DNA of 34,852 nt. Source: Calditrichia bacterium. GTDB taxonomy: Bacteria; Calditrichota; Calditrichia; Calditrichales; Calditrichaceae. The stretch's first letter is position 1. Each line of letters begins with the position of its first letter. A model generated the notes under the pieces. It did not search any database. It was not told the origin of the DNA and saw only the letters and a program-made list of their open reading frames with translations. The DNA is taken from contig JALSTK010000154.1 in assembly GCA_026983775.1 (NCBI GenBank), forward strand, positions 1 to 34,852, read 5' to 3'. Made by a program: the position numbers and the translations under genes. This document shows positions 2,252-32,998 of this stretch, piece after piece.

Positions 2252-5200
2252 ATGTTGAAAAAAACCGCTTTGATTTTATCCGGCCTTTTGCTGGTGCAAT
2301 TGGCCTCGGCGCAGGGTCTCATTCATCATCATATTACCGCCACGGTAACCCCCGCTACCCATTCGGTCGCGGTGAGTGATGAGATAACCATCCCCGCCGC
2401 TCAATTCCGGAAGCATTTAACCTTCGTTTTAAATAACGATTTAAAAGTAGCCGTTAAGACAGCGGGTGTAAAACTGTCTCTCGTCCAAAAAAATGTAAAA
2501 GCCCGGGATGTGGGCATGGACATGGAGGCTCCGCAGGTTGCTGCCAGGATTTCACAAAATAAATATGCACTCGATTGGGAACAGCCACCGGGAAAAGAAG
2601 TGAAAGTAACGCTCACCTATTCGGGCAAGCTTTATTATCCGGTCCAACAGCTTTCCGAAGAATATGCCAGGGGATTCAGTACCTCTCCGGGTATAATTTC
2701 CGAAAAGGGAGTCTACCTGGCCGGTTCCACCGATTGGGTCCCATGGTTTAATGACCAACTTTTCACGTTTGAGCTGAGTACCCGTGTACCGTCGGGATGG
2801 GATGTGGTCAGCCAGGGGAAACGAACCACGCGCAAGGTTGAGGGGGATCAGCAGTTAACGGTTTGGAATTCTCCACAACCCATGGAAGAAGTATTTTTAA
2901 TTGCGGCTCCCTTTCATGAATATGAAACCATGGCCGGTAAGGTACATGTTATGGCCTTTTTACGTAGCGCCGATGAAAGTCTGGCCAATAAATATTTACA
3001 AACCACCTCCCAGTATCTGCAGATGTACCGTCAATTGATCGGTCCCTATCCCTTCTGGAAATTTGCCCTGGTGGAGAATTTTTGGGAAACCGGCTATGGG
3101 ATGCCCTCCTTTACACTGTTGGGTGAAAAGATCATTCGTTTTCCTTTTATTCTGCATTCCTCCTACCCCCATGAACTGCTCCATAACTGGTGGGGCAACA
3201 GCGTTTATGTGGATTTCAGCGGGGGCAACTGGTGCGAAGGTTTAACGGTTTACAATGCCGATCAGTTAATTAAGGAACAGCGCGGCCGGGGTGCCCAATA
3301 CCGCCGGGCCGCCCTGCAGAGATATACCGATTATGTGAATGAGCAAAATGATTTTCCGCTCGGCAAGTTCCTGTCCCGCCATGATGCGCCCACGGAGGCC
3401 GTGGGTTATGGCAAAGGAATGATGCTATGGGATATGCTACGGGAACGTATGGGTGACAAATCTTTTATCCAAACCATGCAGAATTTCTATCGGCAGTTCA
3501 AATTTAAACGGGCTTCGTTCGATGATATCCGCAAGACGGCCGAAGCGGTTAGTAAACAGGATCTGAAATCGTTTTTTGATCAGTGGGTCAAGCGGAAAGG
3601 GGCTCCGCAATTAGAGCTGGATTTCGTTTCGGTTGTACCGCACGCGGATGATTTCGATCTGCAATTCACCTTAAAGCAAATTCAATCCGAACCGGCTTTT
3701 AATCTGCTTATTCCGGTGGCGGTTTCTTTTAAAGACAGCATACATCTGCTGAAAGTGGAAATGAATCTTAAAGAGCAGCATTATCAGCTGAATTTTAAGG
3801 ATCGTCCTCTGGCCATTCAGATTGACCCTGCCTATGATGTGTTTCGCCGTCTGGACTACCGGGAGATCCCTCCGGCACTTTCTCTGGTATTCGGGTCCAC
3901 GAAAATTTTGATCGTTCTACCTTCCAAAGAAGATTCCCTTAAAACAAGAGCTCTTAAGCAACTGGCTTCTACCTGGGCCAGGGATAAGAGTAAGGATATC
4001 CAAATAAAACCGGACACCGAAGTGGATACCCTTCCTGCCGACCGGGCTGTTTGGCTGTTTGGTAAGGAAAACCGTTTTTTCCCGCTGGTCCTGCACGGTT
4101 TAAGCGGCTATGATGCAGCGGTCGGACGGGATTCCATTCAGCTGGGCAAAACGACATTACAGAGGAAAGATCACAGTTTTGTAATAACGGTTCGTCATCC
4201 CGGCAATCCGAAATCGGCTCTGGCCTGGCTGAGTGTCCATAACATCAAGGCAATTCCCGGCTTAGCCCGTAAATTACCCCATTATGGTAAATACAGCTAT
4301 CTGGCCTTTACCGGAGACGAGCCCTCCAATGTAGCCAAAGGGCAATGGCCTACCATCCATTCTCCTCTGCAAAAAATCATTCCTTTTCGGGACGGTACGA
4401 TCCCCAGCAATTTTGTGCGCACCGTACCGAAACGGCCGGCTTTGGCTCAACTGGCTCCGGTTTTCTCTGCTCAAAGAATGATGAAGGATATTAAATTTCT
4501 ATCCAGTGATGCCTTAAAAGGCCGGGGTCTGGGCAGCGAGGGTCTGGAACAGGCCGCCCGCTATATTGTAAAGCAATTTAAAGAGGCCGGACTAAAGCCG
4601 TGGAAAAAGGACGGAGATTATTTTCAACCCTTCGAAGCGGTGGTTGACGCCCGGGGCCGTAAAAAGACGGTTAAAAATATTATCGGAATTATTCCCGGTG
4701 TTAACCCGAAATTTGCCGGGCAGGCGGTGGTGGTGAGCGCTCATTATGATCATCTGGGACTCGGTTGGCCGGATGTGCACAAAGGTGACGAGGGCAAAAT
4801 TCATCACGGTGCCGATGATAATGCCAGTGGAATCTCGGTCATGCTGGAGCTGGCCCGCACCATGGGCAAAACGGCTCATCCCATGCGCACCATTGTTTTC
4901 GTAGCCTTTACCGGGGAAGAAGCCGGATTGCTGGGTTCCCGCTATTTTGTGCAACACAATGGCCGATTCCTTCCCAAACAAATCATCGCCGATCTGAATC
5001 TGGATACGGTGGGTCGCTTAAACGGGAAAAAGATATTGGTGCTCAACGGAGCATCGGCCAAAGAATGGCCTTTCTTATTCATGGGGGTGGGCTATGTAAC
5101 CGGTGTACCCTATGAGATGGTTACCCAGCAGCTCGATGCCAGCGATCAGGTTAGTTTCATTCGGGCCGGTATTCCGGCGGTACAGATCTTTTCCGGTCCT

Positions 5201-23768: not shown

Positions 23769-25157
23769 CTAAATTCCCTTCATCATCGAAAAATATTTTG
23801 TTACTTCCTTCTTAACAATAGGAGAAAGAATGAGAATGGCGATCAGATTCGGAATGGTCATGAAAGTGATTACCATATCCACAAAATGCCAGACCAAATC
23901 AATTCCCCACACGGAACCGAAAAAGACAAACAGTCCGAAAACCAGCTGGTAGATTTTAAGATATTTCGCACCGACCAGATATTCCACGGCACGATTTCCA
24001 TAATAGGACCAACTGATAATCGTAGAGAAAGCGAAAAGAATCAAACCTCCTGCTACTATATGCTGCCCTAATCCGGTCAAACCCAGCGGCGCCAGTCCTT
24101 TAGTAAAGCCGTCCACCGTCATTCCAACCCCTTTGATTCCGCTTTGCCACGAACCGGTAAGGATAACCACCAGAGCGGTAAGGGTGCAGATAATCAAAGT
24201 ATCGACCAGGGGACCTACCGAGGCCACTAATCCTTCCCGTACAGGATATTTGGTTTTAGCTGCTGCGTGGGCAATAGCAGCGGACCCCTGACCGGCTTCA
24301 TTGGAGAAGAGTCCTCTTGCCACTCCAAAACGTAAGGTTATAATAAAGGCTGCGCCAATAAATCCGCCGGTTGCCGCTGTTCCGGTAAAAGCATCCGTAA
24401 AAATAAGATAAAAGGCGGCGGGGATTCTATCTATAAAAAGGATGATAACCGTGATCGCTGCCGCAAAATAAGCTACCGCCATAAAGGGTACCAATTTCGA
24501 AGTCACTTCGGCGATTCTTTTTATTCCACCGACAATGACTAGCAAGACCAGAGCGGTAACAATGATACCGGTGCCTGCCGTAGGAATATTGTAATTGGAA
24601 AGCAAAACATCGGAGATCGAATTGGACTGAGCCATATTTCCAGTGCCCAGAGAACAAAGAATGGTTGCCAGTGCAAAGATAACCGCCATAACTTTTGCAA
24701 ATGAGCCCAGTGTATTTTTTAACCCCGTTTCGATATAATACATCGGTCCGCCGGATATGGAACCATCTTCGTGCACTTTACGAAAAAGGAATGAAAGAGT
24801 ACATTCAACAAATTTTAATATCATTCCCAGAAAGCCGGTAACCCACATCCAAAAAACCGCACCCGGCCCTCCATAATATATAGCCAGGGCAACACCAACG
24901 ATATTACCCGTACCTACCGTAGCTGATAAAGCGGTAGTCAATGCCCGAAAATGATTGATATCTCCGGTATCTTCCGCTTTATCATATTTTCCACGTATAA
25001 TATCGAAAGCATGCTTAATTTTAGTGACGTGTAAAAATTTAAATTTAAATGCAAAATATAAACCCGTTGGAATGAGAAGAGATAAGATCAGATAACCACC
25101 GACATATTCGTTGTAGGCAACGATACCCTTGTCAATTGCATTTAGAATTTCCTGCAT
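23769..25157 (-). CDS. Sodium:alanine/glycine symporter (AGCS family)
   Basis: Integral membrane amino-acid transporter of the alanine-or-glycine:cation symporter family (AlsT/DagA type), 462 residues from ATG 25157. It contains the family signature region with ALSATVGTGNIVGVALAIYY and GGPGAVFWMWVTGFLGM, then GSISGGPMYYIETGL and NEAGQGSAAIAHAAAKT, all typical of AGCS. About ten hydrophobic helices span most of the length. It imports alanine or glycine with Na+ or H+. ATG 25157 is chosen because CGGAG lies 5 bp upstream; GTG 25163 is in frame but overlaps that site. A sigma-70-like promoter lies about 95 bp upstream. The exact amino acid is not predictable from sequence alone. Confidence 0.94.
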   Translation of the reverse strand: MQEILNAIDKGIVAYNEYVGGYLILSLLIPTGLYFAFKFKFLHVTKIKHAFDIIRGKYDKAEDTGDINHFRALTTALSATVGTGNIVGVALAIYYGGPGAVFWMWVTGFLGMILKFVECTLSFLFRKVHEDGSISGGPMYYIETGLKNTLGSFAKVMAVIFALATILCSLGTGNMAQSNSISDVLLSNYNIPTAGTGIIVTALVLLVIVGGIKRIAEVTSKLVPFMAVAYFAAAITVIILFIDRIPAAFYLIFTDAFTGTAATGGFIGAAFIITLRFGVARGLFSNEAGQGSAAIAHAAAKTKYPVREGLVASVGPLVDTLIICTLTALVVILTGSWQSGIKGVGMTVDGFTKGLAPLGLTGLGQHIVAGGLILFAFSTIISWSYYGNRAVEYLVGAKYLKIYQLVFGLFVFFGSVWGIDLVWHFVDMVITFMTIPNLIAILILSPIVKKEVTKYFSMMKGI

Positions 25158-25251
25158 AAACACTCCGTTATTTTTTTCCGTTCTTCCTTACTTTAAACCG
25201 GTTTGCCCAGTATCACCTTCTATGGTTTTTTGTATTCATACCTCCCCAGTT

Positions 25252-25326: not shown

Positions 25327-26172
25327 CTAGGTGGTATTCAGATGCAGATCATAAAGAATTGCCTCCAGAACGCCTCCGGCTAACGAAAAATACTTAGACG
25401 GGATTACAGTCGCCGATCGTACCGAAGGAGAGGTATCGATTTCTGCAAAGACCGTATTCCTGGGAACGATCAAACCGCTATTGAGTATACCGGATAGGCG
25501 CCCCTTTTCGGGAGAAAGAATAGGGATCTCATTTATTTTGCCTATTTCCTCTCTTTCCAGCACGGCATCATCCAGTTCTTTGGTGGCCGTAAAAACACCT
25601 TCCAGAGGTGCCTTAACCTGAAACTTATCCTCTTTGCCTAACCTTTTTTCCTGTGGTTCTTTGATGGCGAAGTCCTCTTCAATAAAAGGATAAATCACCC
25701 TTCCTAAAAAAAGATCATCATCGGCCAGGCGATAGGTAAGATTCGTTTCTGTAAAACCATTCGGTCCGATCGTTGTTGCTTCCACTTCACCGGTCAGAGG
25801 CAAAAGGTTTTTCCAGATAGCCTCGTCCGTGATGACTATATAGGGGAAGGGAAGTTTTTTGATAGCTCCAAATTCACTGTATTCGATGAGCGGGATTCTC
25901 CGATTAGCCACTTCATGAATTACAAAATCTTCAAGGCTCATATCCGGTGCAGTCTCTTCCTGTTCGATCGAGCCGGCTTGCGTAATAGCGGTTACATTGT
26001 TAATGGTCTTTTTACCGCTGAAAAACCCTCCGGTAAAAGTACGGGTATGGTAGATATCGAGGGCAATCTGCCTGCCGATAAGCACAACCTGCCAGCCGCT
26101 AAACTCCAGGCGTAAAGCACAGGCCGTCCCAAAATCGCTCGTTCCGATCACCAGCACTTTTTGGGATTTCAC
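25327..26172 (-). CDS. YqeB (EF2563)-like protein, NAD-binding-like N-terminus plus two barrel motifs
   Basis: A 281-residue cytoplasmic protein resembling the YqeB/EF2563 family linked to selenium-dependent molybdenum hydroxylases. The N-terminus has a Rossmann-like GTSDFGTACALRLEFSGW, close to the family's GxGDxATGxAxRL. The next strand is followed by RTFTGGFFSGKKTINNVTA, like the family's RR-F-EA-Y-G element. The C-terminal half carries two barrel-like motifs (KAPLEGVFTATKEL and LSPEKGRLSGILNSGLIV), as in YqeB. Translation starts at GTG 26172, overlapping the previous stop as GTGA. It is the last gene of the nine-gene operon. No selD, xdh-type hydroxylase or mocA gene is present. I judge the family resemblance fair; the function is unknown. 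Confidence 0.65.
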   Translation of the reverse strand: MKSQKVLVIGTSDFGTACALRLEFSGWQVVLIGRQIALDIYHTRTFTGGFFSGKKTINNVTAITQAGSIEQEETAPDMSLEDFVIHEVANRRIPLIEYSEFGAIKKLPFPYIVITDEAIWKNLLPLTGEVEATTIGPNGFTETNLTYRLADDDLFLGRVIYPFIEEDFAIKEPQEKRLGKEDKFQVKAPLEGVFTATKELDDAVLEREEIGKINEIPILSPEKGRLSGILNSGLIVPRNTVFAEIDTSPSVRSATVIPSKYFSLAGGVLEAILYDLHLNTT

Positions 26173-28742: not shown

Positions 28743-30104
28743 CTATTTAATGCCATATTTTTTTAATTTGGACATAAAGGTGCTGCGATTCATTTTTAGC
28801 ATTTTTGCCGTCTGGAATTTATTATACTTGTTTTGTTCCAGGGCTTTGATGATTAGATTACGTTCATAACTGTCGACAATATTGGATAAACCCTCATCAA
28901 AATCAACTTCGGATGGATAATCTTCCTCTTCATTTTGGCGGATATAGGATGGAAGGTCCTCTGCGGTGATTTTACCCTTTTTATCGAGTACAACGATGCG
29001 CTCAATTAAATTTTCGAGCTCACGTATATTTCCGGGATAGTCATATTCTTCGATTAATTCCATGGCTTTGGGTTCAACTTCCTGAATGGTTTTTCCATAC
29101 ACGCGGTTGAACTTCTCAATAAAATGATTCACCAGATATTTGATATCGTCCTTCCGCTCCCGTAGAGGAGGCACGGTGATAGGGATTACATTCAACCGAT
29201 AGAAGAGATCCTGCCGAAAAGTTCCCTCTTTGATTGCTTTTTTCAGATCTTTATTGGTCGCTGCGATGATCCGTACGTCCACTTTAATGGTCTCTGTTCC
29301 GCCGACTCGTTCAAACTCGCCTTCCTGAAGGACACGTAGCAATTTAAGCTGCATATTCAAGGAAATATCTCCGATTTCATCCAGAAAAAGGGTTCCGCCG
29401 TTAGCCATTTCGAAACGGCCGATCTTATCTTTTATGGCTCCGGTAAACGCACCCCGCACATGACCGAACAATTCACTCTCCAACAAACTTTCGGCCAGAA
29501 CTCCGCAATTTACTTTTACAAAGGGCCGCTTGACACGGGCACTATTGTAGTGAATCGCATTGGCGATGAGTTCTTTACCTACTCCGCTTTCCCCATTAAT
29601 TAAAATCGTTGTATTGGTGGTAGCCACATCTTTTACCAGACGAAAAATCTCCTGGATTTTATCATTTTTACCTATCATATTGGTAAAATCATAGGTCTGC
29701 TGCAACTTGGCCAGCAGGTACTCATTCTCCTTAATTAAGGAACTGAGCTGAGTGATACGTTCCACTTTGGCCAGTATTTCATCGAGGCTGAGCGGCTTAA
29801 GGATATAGTCCTTAGCACCGATTTTCATGGCTTCCACCGCCGTATTAACCGTCCCATGAGCAGTTATCATAATTACCGGAATATGCGGATATTCCTTAGT
29901 CAGCACCCGCAATAACTGCATACCGTCCATTTCAGGCATCCGGATATCTGAAAGCACAATATCGGGTTCTTGGTTTTTTATTAAGTTCAATGCCTCAATA
30001 CCGTTAGGAGCGGTTAAAGGAATATACCCTTTGCTTTCAAAAAGGTCCTGCATCATCTCCAGGGCAGCATAGTCATCATCTACGATTAATACACGGGATT
30101 TCAT
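28743..30104 (-). CDS. NtrC-family sigma-54-dependent response regulator
   Basis: A 453-residue regulator. The receiver has D53 ([11 protein letters not shown]), the acidic pocket VDDD and switch residues ITAHGTV and LKPLS. The AAA+ sigma-54 activator domain has Walker A GESGVGKE, the canonical contact loop GAFTGA ([16 protein letters not shown]), Walker [11 protein letters not shown] and [10 protein letters not shown] Fis-type helix-turn-helix is at the end ([24 protein letters not shown]). All motifs look functional. It lies 12 bp after a kinase-like gene that has lost its phospho-acceptor His, so its phosphate source is in doubt. Co-transcription with gltX suggests constitutive basal expression. 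Targets are unknown. Confidence 0.94.
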
Positions 30105-30116
30105 CAGACCTCCCTA

Positions 30117-31553
30117 CTATGGGTTTATATCGTATACGGGAAAGAGTATTTCTACAAATTCTTTTTCTGTATTCTTCGTACCACATCTGGCCAGCCCCTT
30201 ATAGGTATGTAGGATGTGGTCGATAATGGTACCTTCAATTGTTTGCTTATTTTGCATAAATTTGCAAAGTGTATGTTCTTCACCGAATATAGGATTTGAA
30301 TAGGTTAAAAGAAAAGAAAATTTTACCTGCATCCTATGTTCATCGGATTCCGCCCGGCATACTTCTGCTCTGATTCCGCCTTCCGATCCTACAAATTCCA
30401 GGCCCGCTTCGATCAGGAGTTTAAGCAATAGATCAAAGTGGGATGGCAAACCCATAAGAACCGGGATTTCTCCCTTTACCTCAACTTGAAGACGATGCGG
30501 ATCTTTCTCTAACCAGCGGGTGATAGACGGTTCAAAAGAGATATTCTTCAATATTTCCCCGGCCTGAATCTTCTGAGGTACCACGTCTTCCTTTAAAGTC
30601 GCGAAGGTCACTAACTTGGAAATCGTTCCATTCATACGATCCACCTGTTTTTGCATATCTGCTATGCTCTTAAACGCATCCCGGTCGCGATGATTGGATA
30701 AGGTCCCTTTTAAGAGTTGCAACCTTCCGGAAATAACATTGATCGGATTCAGTAGTTCATTGGCAATGGACTGGGCAAATTGGTTTAATATGTTACTCGC
30801 CGCATGGCCTGTGTCGGGTCCCTGTAAAGTCGGGCGCGGAGTCTCCTGTAGTAAAAGATATTCATCGTCCGCTTGAATCCTTCGGATGTTCAAATCGATG
30901 CTACTGGTTTGATTAAAACGGTCTCTCAAAAGTATCTTATAATGTTGCAAAGGCTGTCTATCATGGAGACAATGACGAATAAGATATTCCCAGACCGTTA
31001 AGCCGTCACTGACTATATCCTGAAAACGAATTTCCATGCCCGCCTCATCGGCAAGGCCTAATCTTTCGCTGCCAGCCTTATTTAAGTAAATAAATTCTCC
31101 CGACTTACGAACAATCGCTATAAATATATCCAGTGTATCAATAATGGCAGAATGGATACCGCTCAATACGGAATTATTGAGTGAAGAATCATGAATCTCT
31201 TGATAGATTTCCGCTAAGATCGGGGGCAATTTCGATGAAATTTCATTTTTTGAAATTAGCTTAAGATTTTGATAATGGTGATAACCTCTTAGGTTCTGAT
31301 CCTCATCCACCACAACCCATTGCATCCCGGCATTATCCCGAACCAGCGTTTCCAAAGAAGCAATAGGATATGATAAATAATGATTATCCACTACAACCAA
31401 ATTAAACTCTTTGCCTTCCAATGCATGAAGAGTGTCAGCGTCGAAGTCGGTCTGCCGATCAATTTGACAGGGAATGGAATTATATACATCTGCAATTAAA
31501 TCGGAAATTTGCCGGTCTTGTTCCAGGCAAAATATGTGAATAGCTTTTCCCAT
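30117..31553 (-). CDS. Degenerate PAS-type sensor histidine kinase (pseudokinase)
   Basis: A 478-residue soluble kinase-like protein. Residues 1-115 look like a receiver-type fold, with D56 at the phospho-acceptor place (LVVVDNHY) but an incomplete acidic pocket. A PAS domain follows (about 130-245; GEFIYLNKAGSERLGL). The HisKA-like helix reads SIANELLNPINVISGRLQLL, which aligns with the usual xHELxNPL but has Asn265 where the phosphorylated His should be. The ATPase part (about 345-475) lacks the N box, the DxGxG loop and the GxGLGL loop; GTIIDHILHTYKGLA occupies the place of the last. So both autophosphorylation and ATP binding are probably lost. Its ATG overlaps the gltX stop (TAATG), and the NtrC-type regulator follows by 12 bp. 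It may act as a phosphatase, scaffold or decoy. Confidence 0.85.
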   Translation of the reverse strand: MGKAIHIFCLEQDRQISDLIADVYNSIPCQIDRQTDFDADTLHALEGKEFNLVVVDNHYLSYPIASLETLVRDNAGMQWVVVDEDQNLRGYHHYQNLKLISKNEISSKLPPILAEIYQEIHDSSLNNSVLSGIHSAIIDTLDIFIAIVRKSGEFIYLNKAGSERLGLADEAGMEIRFQDIVSDGLTVWEYLIRHCLHDRQPLQHYKILLRDRFNQTSSIDLNIRRIQADDEYLLLQETPRPTLQGPDTGHAASNILNQFAQSIANELLNPINVISGRLQLLKGTLSNHRDRDAFKSIADMQKQVDRMNGTISKLVTFATLKEDVVPQKIQAGEILKNISFEPSITRWLEKDPHRLQVEVKGEIPVLMGLPSHFDLLLKLLIEAGLEFVGSEGGIRAEVCRAESDEHRMQVKFSFLLTYSNPIFGEEHTLCKFMQNKQTIEGTIIDHILHTYKGLARCGTKNTEKEFVEILFPVYDINP

Positions 31554-32998
31554 TATTCGATCAAATTATCCATAAATTCTGTTGCTTTTTTCAAACGACG
31601 CAACACCTTATCCCGACCCAAAATATGGATTATTTCGAAAATGCCGGGACTGGCTGTTTTACCTGTCAGAGCCAGACGCAGAGGATGAATGATCTTTCCG
31701 GCCGACTGTCCTCTTTTCTCCGCAAAGGCTCTGAGCCAATCTTCTATTTCTTGAACGCCGTGCAGCGAACCCGACCATTGTTCATACTCTGAACTCAGAG
31801 CATTCAGAATTTCATAATTTTCTTTTTTGGAAAAATATTTACGGATCCCTTTCTCCTCATATTCCCCGGGGTCTTCAAAATAAAAGCGTACCGCCTCCTG
31901 TAACTCAATCACAGATTTCGCACGGATTTTTACCAAATTTAGAAGCAGATCGAATGCGGATTGGTTCATTCCATCCTGATTCCAATGGCAATTCCTTATC
32001 CAGGGTTGTAAAATTTTTTTGAGATCCGAGTTTGACTTGTTGGCCATGTATTTGGCGTTTAGCCAGATAAGTTTCTTCTCATCGAAGACTGCCGGAGTAT
32101 GGTTGATCCGATCTATACTGAATTCGCGGATTAACTCCTCCCTGCTGAAAATTTCCCGTTCTGTGCCCGGCGACCAGCCCAACAAGCACAAATAATTGAA
32201 CAGAGTTTCCGGGAAAATGCCCCGGTCTTTAAATTCTTCCACAGAAGTGGCGCCATGACGCTTTGAAAGCCGTTTTTTATCCTGTCCCAGGATTAACGGT
32301 AAATGACCAAATTCCGGCACGGGCCAGCTCAGCGCCCGATAGAGGAGGATTTGTTTATTGGTGTTGGCAAGATGATCATCGCCACGCAATACGGTAGTTA
32401 CTCCCATATCATGATCATCCGCTACCACCGATAGCTGATAAACGGGGTTTCCATCGGAACGAACGATGATGAAATCATCCAGGGTATCATTGTTTACAAC
32501 CATCTCACCGTGGATAAGATCTTTCCAGACAACCTGCCCGGCAGGCACCTTAAAGCGAATAGCAAACGGTTTCCCTGCCGCTAAATTTTCATTGATCTGA
32601 TCTGGAGTCAGATTTCTGCAGGTACCGTCATAGCGCTTGTTAATTTTTTGTTGCTCTGCGAGAAGACGCTTAGCTTCCAGCTCTTCTCTCGTACAAAAGC
32701 ATCGATACGCTTTATTTTCATTTAAAAGTTGATCGGCTTTCTCTAAGTGTCTTTTTTTTCGACTACTTTGAAATATAATTTCGCCATCCCAGTCGATTTT
32801 TAACCACTTTAAACCGGATAGAATCTGTTGAATTGACTCTTTTGTGGATCGAGCCCGGTCTGTATCTTCGATGCGTAATAAAAATTTCCCCTTGAATTTT
32901 CGAGCCAGCAACCAATTAAATATAGCGGTTCTTGCACCTCCCACATGGAGATAGCCACTCGGGCTGGGTGCAAAACGAAAAACAGATTCCAAATTCAC
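31553..32998 (-). CDS. gltX: Glutamyl-tRNA synthetase
   Basis: A 481-residue class I aminoacyl-tRNA synthetase that charges tRNA-Glu. The HIGH-type motif is in RFAPSPSGYLHVGGARTAIF and the KMSKS-type motif is KKRLSKRHG. LLRIEDTDRARS, VSVVADDHDMGVTTVLRGDDHL (given by LRGDDHL) and the ALTGKTASPGIFEI C-terminal anticodon-binding segment are standard. The length is normal. The start is GTG 32998 by extension; TTG 32992 is in frame with GGAG 5 bp upstream, and may be the real initiator. It is the first gene of a nine-gene operon whose next member starts within its stop codon. Whether it also charges tRNA-Gln cannot be judged here. Confidence 0.96.
   Translation of the reverse strand: MNLESVFRFAPSPSGYLHVGGARTAIFNWLLARKFKGKFLLRIEDTDRARSTKESIQQILSGLKWLKIDWDGEIIFQSSRKKRHLEKADQLLNENKAYRCFCTREELEAKRLLAEQQKINKRYDGTCRNLTPDQINENLAAGKPFAIRFKVPAGQVVWKDLIHGEMVVNNDTLDDFIIVRSDGNPVYQLSVVADDHDMGVTTVLRGDDHLANTNKQILLYRALSWPVPEFGHLPLILGQDKKRLSKRHGATSVEEFKDRGIFPETLFNYLCLLGWSPGTEREIFSREELIREFSIDRINHTPAVFDEKKLIWLNAKYMANKSNSDLKKILQPWIRNCHWNQDGMNQSAFDLLLNLVKIRAKSVIELQEAVRFYFEDPGEYEEKGIRKYFSKKENYEILNALSSEYEQWSGSLHGVQEIEDWLRAFAEKRGQSAGKIIHPLRLALTGKTASPGIFEIIHILGRDKVLRRLKKATEFMDNLIE

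Follow-up and report, generated by a model that had tools for sequence, protein, structure and literature searches.

Few pseudo-histidine kinases have been characterised to our knowledge, and DivL is the best studied of them. In Spo0B and ChpT, the DHp dimer bears the His, and the attached Bergerat-like domain is unable to bind ATP. In Caulobacter, DivL carries Tyr at the acceptor site, keeps its ATP-binding motifs and was found to be devoid of kinase as well as phosphatase activity (PMC4211667). NifL of Klebsiella acts by binding: it associates with the sigma-54 activator NifA in a complex although its C-terminal domain is free of ATP/ADP-binding features (PMC9866876). Furthermore, an inactive ChrS variant that heterodimerises with HrrS increases signalling via ChrA (PMC9491836). 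For the NtrB-like kinase CrdS, the Asn located four residues after the phospho-acceptor His (His+4) was required for phosphatase but not for kinase activity, and the Glu at His+1 for kinase but not for phosphatase activity (PMC3510030). Exchange of the CrdS His for Ala left most of the phosphatase activity in place, the half-life of CrdA~P being 2.6 min with this variant, 0.7 min with the wild type and 53.5 min for CrdA~P alone (PMC3510030). PleC H610A, as far as it is cited in the same paper, loses both activities.

The window, a stretch of 34,852 nucleotides representing contig JALSTK010000154.1 of a Calditrichia bacterium (GCA_026983775.1), encodes a new variant of pseudo-histidine kinase featuring Asn at the acceptor position, no ATP site and a degenerate receiver, which is family-wide and located in an operon with gltX and the gene for an NtrC-type regulator. 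No published description of this Asn-type pseudokinase was found in the literature searched, including work on Caldithrix two-component systems, on degenerate kinases/Spo0B and on H139N NtrB. The features of the locus are as follows:

31553..32998, minus strand: gltX, glutamyl-tRNA synthetase, operon copy and first gene of the conserved operon (TIGR00464, 551.8 bits)
31551..31555, minus strand: TAATG, in which the gltX stop overlaps the pseudokinase start (sequence)
30117..31553, minus strand: pseudo-histidine-kinase gene, 478 aa, ATG start (open reading frame and translation)
31200..31553, minus strand: receiver-like domain, residues 1-118 (alignment of 21 orthologues)
30834..31151, minus strand: PAS domain, putative input, residues 135-240 (PAS fold in orthologues; secondary structure of the model)
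30588..30812, minus strand: DHp two-helix domain, residues 248-322 (alignment; model helices 248-285 and 291-320)
30759..30761, minus strand: Asn265 codon AAT, position of the phospho-acceptor His (orthologue alignment)
30747..30749, minus strand: Asn269 codon, His+4 (orthologue alignment; role from PMC3510030)
30120..30587, minus strand: Bergerat-like C-terminal domain, residues 323-478 (alignment with canonical kinases; model)
28743..30104, minus strand: NtrC-type response regulator with REC (Asp53, Lys103), sigma-54 AAA+ and Fis HTH domains (Pfam)

The observations stated in the original prediction on this gene were all confirmed, namely the substitution of the phospho-acceptor His by Asn265 (AAT, 30761-30759), the one-base overlap between the gltX stop and the pseudokinase start, and the intact NtrC-type regulator gene starting 12 bp after the pseudokinase gene. 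The same applies to the ATPase part: alignment with 12 canonical kinases encoded in the same genome showed that the N-box asparagines, DxGxG, GxGLG and the ATP lid are absent, and Pfam HATPase_c gave no match in the window protein at E <= 0.1. Based on this alignment and the structural model, the C-terminal domain is Bergerat-like and lacks a nucleotide site. HisKA (PF00512) was recognised at residues 256-321 with 33.5 bits (cut-off 26.9). An addition to the prediction is the N-terminal degenerate receiver (REC), followed by PAS; the Response_reg profile matches 10 of the 21 orthologues, the window protein not being among them. Its Pfam match to PAS is weak, and the PAS fold was found in 20/21 orthologues (E <= 0.1). 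The window protein has neither the residues that bind ATP nor those that would carry a phosphoryl group. Within the host genome (4.03 Mb, 99.5% complete), it is the only one among 59 HisKA matches showing Asn at this site; the other 58 possess His, including the match C171, which reads AHDYNN.

The AlphaFold model of the window protein (mean pLDDT 79.8) displays a receiver-like domain, a long helix, PAS, the two-helix DHp and an alpha/beta C-terminal domain, in this order. Foldseek matches of the model are histidine kinases, including ZraS (9jfj) and DivL (4q20), and the list also contains RetS-GacS (7n0e), NifL-NifA (9qq6) and the Leptospira hybrid response regulator LvrB (8vc9). The last of these resembles the window protein in combining REC and DHp-CA in one polypeptide and differs from it in that REC, His and the ATP site are all degenerate in the window protein. 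With DivL, the window protein shares a HisKA-type DHp, a non-His acceptor residue fixed across a clade, PAS input and, as predicted, the ability to control a response-regulator pathway while lacking kinase activity. However, the acceptor residue of DivL is Tyr and its N, G1, F and G2 boxes are retained, whereas the window protein has Asn and has lost all ATP boxes; moreover, DivL acts through CckA and a single-domain regulator, whereas the window protein features an N-terminal REC and is encoded in one operon with an NtrC-type regulator. NifL is similar with respect to its PAS, H and GHKL-like domains and the adjoining sigma-54 activator. Its partner NifA, however, has GAF and no receiver, unlike the window's regulator with an intact REC and Asp53; NifL of Azotobacter keeps His and binds ADP, and a linkage to gltX is missing. 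The CrdS variants H371A and E372A (kinase-minus, phosphatase-plus; PMC3510030), members of an NtrB/NtrC-type pair, likewise lost the His or the His+1 acid and kept the His+4 Asn, but are laboratory-made with an intact ATPase domain, whereas the window protein is natural and its ATPase site is gone as well.

Named records place the relatives of the window protein in Calditrichota, class Calditrichia, several of them in Calditrichaceae/Caldithrix. Nine other genomes of the host family (Calditrichaceae, f1) carry full-length or nearly full-length orthologues with 20-32% identity. The resulting set of ten alignable f1 proteins comprises eight intact full-length open reading frames and two running to contig ends; an eleventh f1 orthologue (G011), a short contig-end fragment without site 265, was left out of the counts. 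Position 265 is Asn in all ten, and these proteins form one clade in the kinase tree (support 100/100). One copy resides in a single-contig genome of 4.98 Mb (G005). In each of the ten loci gltX is located directly upstream, and the regulator gene follows directly downstream in the eight loci where the contig continues. L039 and L043 share the one-base overlap with gltX, and elsewhere the two genes show short overlaps of other lengths or gaps. Along with the His, the Asn group has for the most part lost the acidic pair, the Thr and the Lys that mark active receivers; Asp at REC position 56 is kept in the window protein and in 6/10 of the f1 set.

Two contigs of G013 (L044 and L102), which originate from one metagenome assembly and probably represent two strains binned together, encode Asn-type alleles that are almost the same (about 96% over 212 codons). 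This pair, the only Asn-type pair with unsaturated synonymous sites, yielded a dN/dS of 0.089 over the 212 codons; in more distant Asn-type pairs synonymous sites are saturated, and amino-acid identity still amounts to 42-52%. The pseudokinase gene is thus under purifying selection. Decay specific to one strain was ruled out by the fixed Asn and this dN/dS value. The original prediction had named homologues with His and intact ATP boxes at the same locus as a sign of such decay, and here the outcome was mixed: His-type homologues exist at this locus in other families, but none of them has intact ATP boxes, which again speaks against decay in one strain. The pseudokinase evolves far faster than its partner, since over the same f1 genomes the regulator is 74-86% identical. 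This very fast divergence would fit a gene on its way out, under relaxed selection after early loss of ATP binding and without present function, as would its absence between gltX and the regulator gene in G008, G010 and G022, in family f2 and in some f5 genomes. We regard this explanation as improbable, given the intact and contig-end reading frames across distant genera, the invariant DHp residues and the dN/dS value of the one testable pair.

Outside the host family, position 265 is His in 11/11 orthologues. The proteins of f3 and f6, whose genes stand in the gene order of the window (gltX, kinase, regulator), possess His (HEIRNP). The N box and the D/G1 box are missing in all 21 orthologues, the His-bearing ones included, and a trace of the G2 box (GLGM) is kept only in f6 proteins. 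The f5 proteins combine His with a receiver that is degenerate or absent, and gltX does not adjoin their genes; loss of His and loss of the receiver are therefore not strictly coupled. A phosphorylatable His on a DHp combined with a non-ATP-binding C-terminal domain thus occurs only in the f3, f5 and f6 relatives. Spo0B and ChpT resemble those of f3 and f6 and, unlike the window protein, carry His. Since the f3 and f6 proteins keep the acidic pair, Asp, Thr and Lys of the receiver as well as the DHp His beside a dead CA domain, the His-type relatives might act as relays of the Spo0B/ChpT kind between their own receiver (or another kinase) and the regulator, the Asn type carrying the phosphate on another residue. 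However, the Asn type has no phosphorylatable residue replacing His, and its receiver lost the acidic pair, Thr and, in most cases, Lys, so that a relay may hold for f3/f6 but hardly for the window protein; as an account of the whole group, unusual phosphotransfer is very improbable. Among solved structures, NtrC-family receivers are the best sequence match to the receiver of the His-type relatives (L048-L053), and this receiver may be derived from an NtrC-type regulator.

No kinase gene separates gltX from the adjoining regulator gene in G022 (f4) or in G008 and G010 (both f1), the gaps between the coding matches being about 18 bp (G022), 268 bp (G008) and 96 bp (G010). In f2, the regulator gene is present without gltX or the kinase gene alongside. 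The regulator tree unites f1, f2 and f4 in one group (100/99), apart from the His-bearing families. No gene remnant was found in the gap of G008, and in that of G010 the only good matches were to the regulator's own receiver. Candidates for relocated copies in genomes without the gene were also discarded, the best profile matches (about 1e-20 to 1e-30) looking like ordinary kinases. In the simplest history, the ATPase site was likely lost first, before the class diversified; exchange of His for Asn and loss of receiver chemistry likely followed on the f1 line, and the gene itself was then likely deleted several times. The pseudokinase gene is not essential, because it was deleted in several lineages. 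One syntenic site thus offers a stepwise series, from loss of the ATP site with His kept, over loss of His and receiver chemistry, to loss of the gene, along which the partner regulator is almost unchanged and keeps its phospho-site. With this series, it can be tested by what means a response regulator outlives its cognate kinase, and whether kinases are able to evolve into monofunctional phosphatases.

Conservation within the pseudokinase is concentrated in the DHp, the best conserved domain of the Asn group with a mean pairwise identity of 45% vs 22% for REC, 22% for PAS and 29% for the C-terminal domain. Asn269 (His+4) is invariant in 21/21 orthologues, as are Gly276, Arg277, Leu280, Gln303 and Arg306, among others. 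The residue at His+1 is E in 11/11 members of the His group; in the Asn group it is E in seven, D in one, V in one and Q in one. An invariant His+4 Asn beside a drifting His+1 acid is the pattern predicted by retained phosphatase chemistry and matches the mutational dissection of CrdS. Based on these sequence features, we propose, with somewhat better than even confidence, that the pseudokinase docks on the adjacent regulator and lowers its activity, phosphatase chemistry being the likeliest means. In this scheme, the protein would not bind ATP in the normal way and would carry no phosphoryl group on the usual residue. Its DHp helices would dimerise and dock on the receiver of the adjoining NtrC-type regulator, the PAS domain presumably gating docking in response to a signal. 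The phosphorylated regulator would then most likely be dephosphorylated via the retained Asn269, binding of the NifL/DivL kind being the alternative, and another kinase or a small phosphodonor would phosphorylate Asp53 of the regulator. The proposal in the original prediction that the pseudokinase controls the regulator by binding or dephosphorylation thus fits well, being supported by the Asn fixed in f1, purifying selection, the conserved docking helix and the invariant phosphatase residue; the accompanying tie to tRNA charging found no support.

Taken alone, the pure-phosphatase form is tentative and stands close to pure binding in probability. In its widest version, which is likewise only a possible account, a two-component kinase became, naturally and family-wide, a phosphatase that needs no ATP and is dedicated to an NtrC-type regulator, with His changed to Asn and the phosphatase Asn kept. 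Intermediate stages and complete deletions would then be preserved in sister families, and the regulator would have changed its kinase and kept the old partner only as an off-switch; all of this belongs to the same tentative reading. An intact rest of the H box gives no guarantee of phosphatase activity, as illustrated by DivL and PleC H610A, and a role in structure or docking could instead account for the conserved His+4 Asn. An alternative is a non-catalytic binder whose DHp and pseudo-CA domains would attach to the regulator and, without dephosphorylating it, either inhibit or titrate it or detect whether it is phosphorylated. The Foldseek matches to NifL-NifA, DivL and RetS-GacS, the Klebsiella NifL complex and the activity-free action of DivL are in line with such a role. 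On the other hand, the His+4 Asn never varies, in contrast to the drifting kinase-only residue, and the partner, unlike NifA, has a receiver with an invariant phospho-Asp. We consider the non-catalytic binder possible, at less than even probability.

Regarding the partner regulator, 34/34 orthologues share Asp53 and Lys103, including those from genomes that lack the kinase gene, and rpoN (sigma-54) is encoded in the host genome. Since these residues persist even in the absence of the pseudokinase gene, phosphorylation is probably still relevant for the regulator and provided by something other than the pseudokinase, which, for the same reason, is probably a dispensable modulator. With 58 other His-bearing HisKA matches in the host genome and the ChrS precedent, the pseudokinase might alternatively associate with an intact kinase, as a heterodimer or in a complex, and steer the action of that kinase on the regulator, as in the RetS-GacS, ChrS-HrrS and DivL-CckA types. 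This explanation appears unlikely: no partner kinase was identified, and the neighbour conserved across families is the regulator rather than a kinase. In two genomes the regulator gene shows irregularities that may be real or due to assembly errors: it contains an internal TAA in G007 (L041, 8378-9739), and in G010 (L128, near 2982-3081) the reading frame seems to shift within an A-rich run.

Co-expression of gltX, kinase and regulator genes is likely, since their order is conserved in three families (f1, f3 and f6), often with overlapping genes; gltX is the conserved upstream neighbour in these families and adjoins the regulator gene in f4. The suggested link to tRNA charging or amino-acid state is nevertheless unsupported: f5 keeps the protein and the regulator without gltX, f2 has the regulator without both, and a second glutamyl-tRNA synthetase is generally present. 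In the host genome, this second full-length gene (G000:C81:5854-7263) is 36% identical to the operon copy and lies close to glnS. The operon gltX is missing in f2 and f5. The second copy occurs almost throughout the class; nearly all genomes that have the operon gltX possess a second synthetase as well, and most also have glnS. A specificity of the operon copy for tRNA-Gln is unlikely, given that most genomes of the class, the host included, have GlnRS. A search for a sigma-54 promoter upstream of gltX, as expected for autoregulation, gave no convincing candidate, the best site matching 9/11 consensus bases and lying within coding sequence. A repressor-operator-like element, TGTCGATAT...TATATTGTC...(T)AGACA, precedes the gltX operon in f3 and f6 (loci L048, L050, L051, L052, L053 and L055) and not in f1.

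Beyond the regulator gene, the window encodes a weak YqeB-like protein (25327-26172, minus strand; 72.9 bits, under the cut-off of 220). YqeB is associated with the maturation of selenium-dependent molybdenum hydroxylases. The YqeB-like gene adjoins a sodium:alanine symporter gene (23769-25163, minus strand), and this cluster comes after the regulator gene in several f1 genomes.
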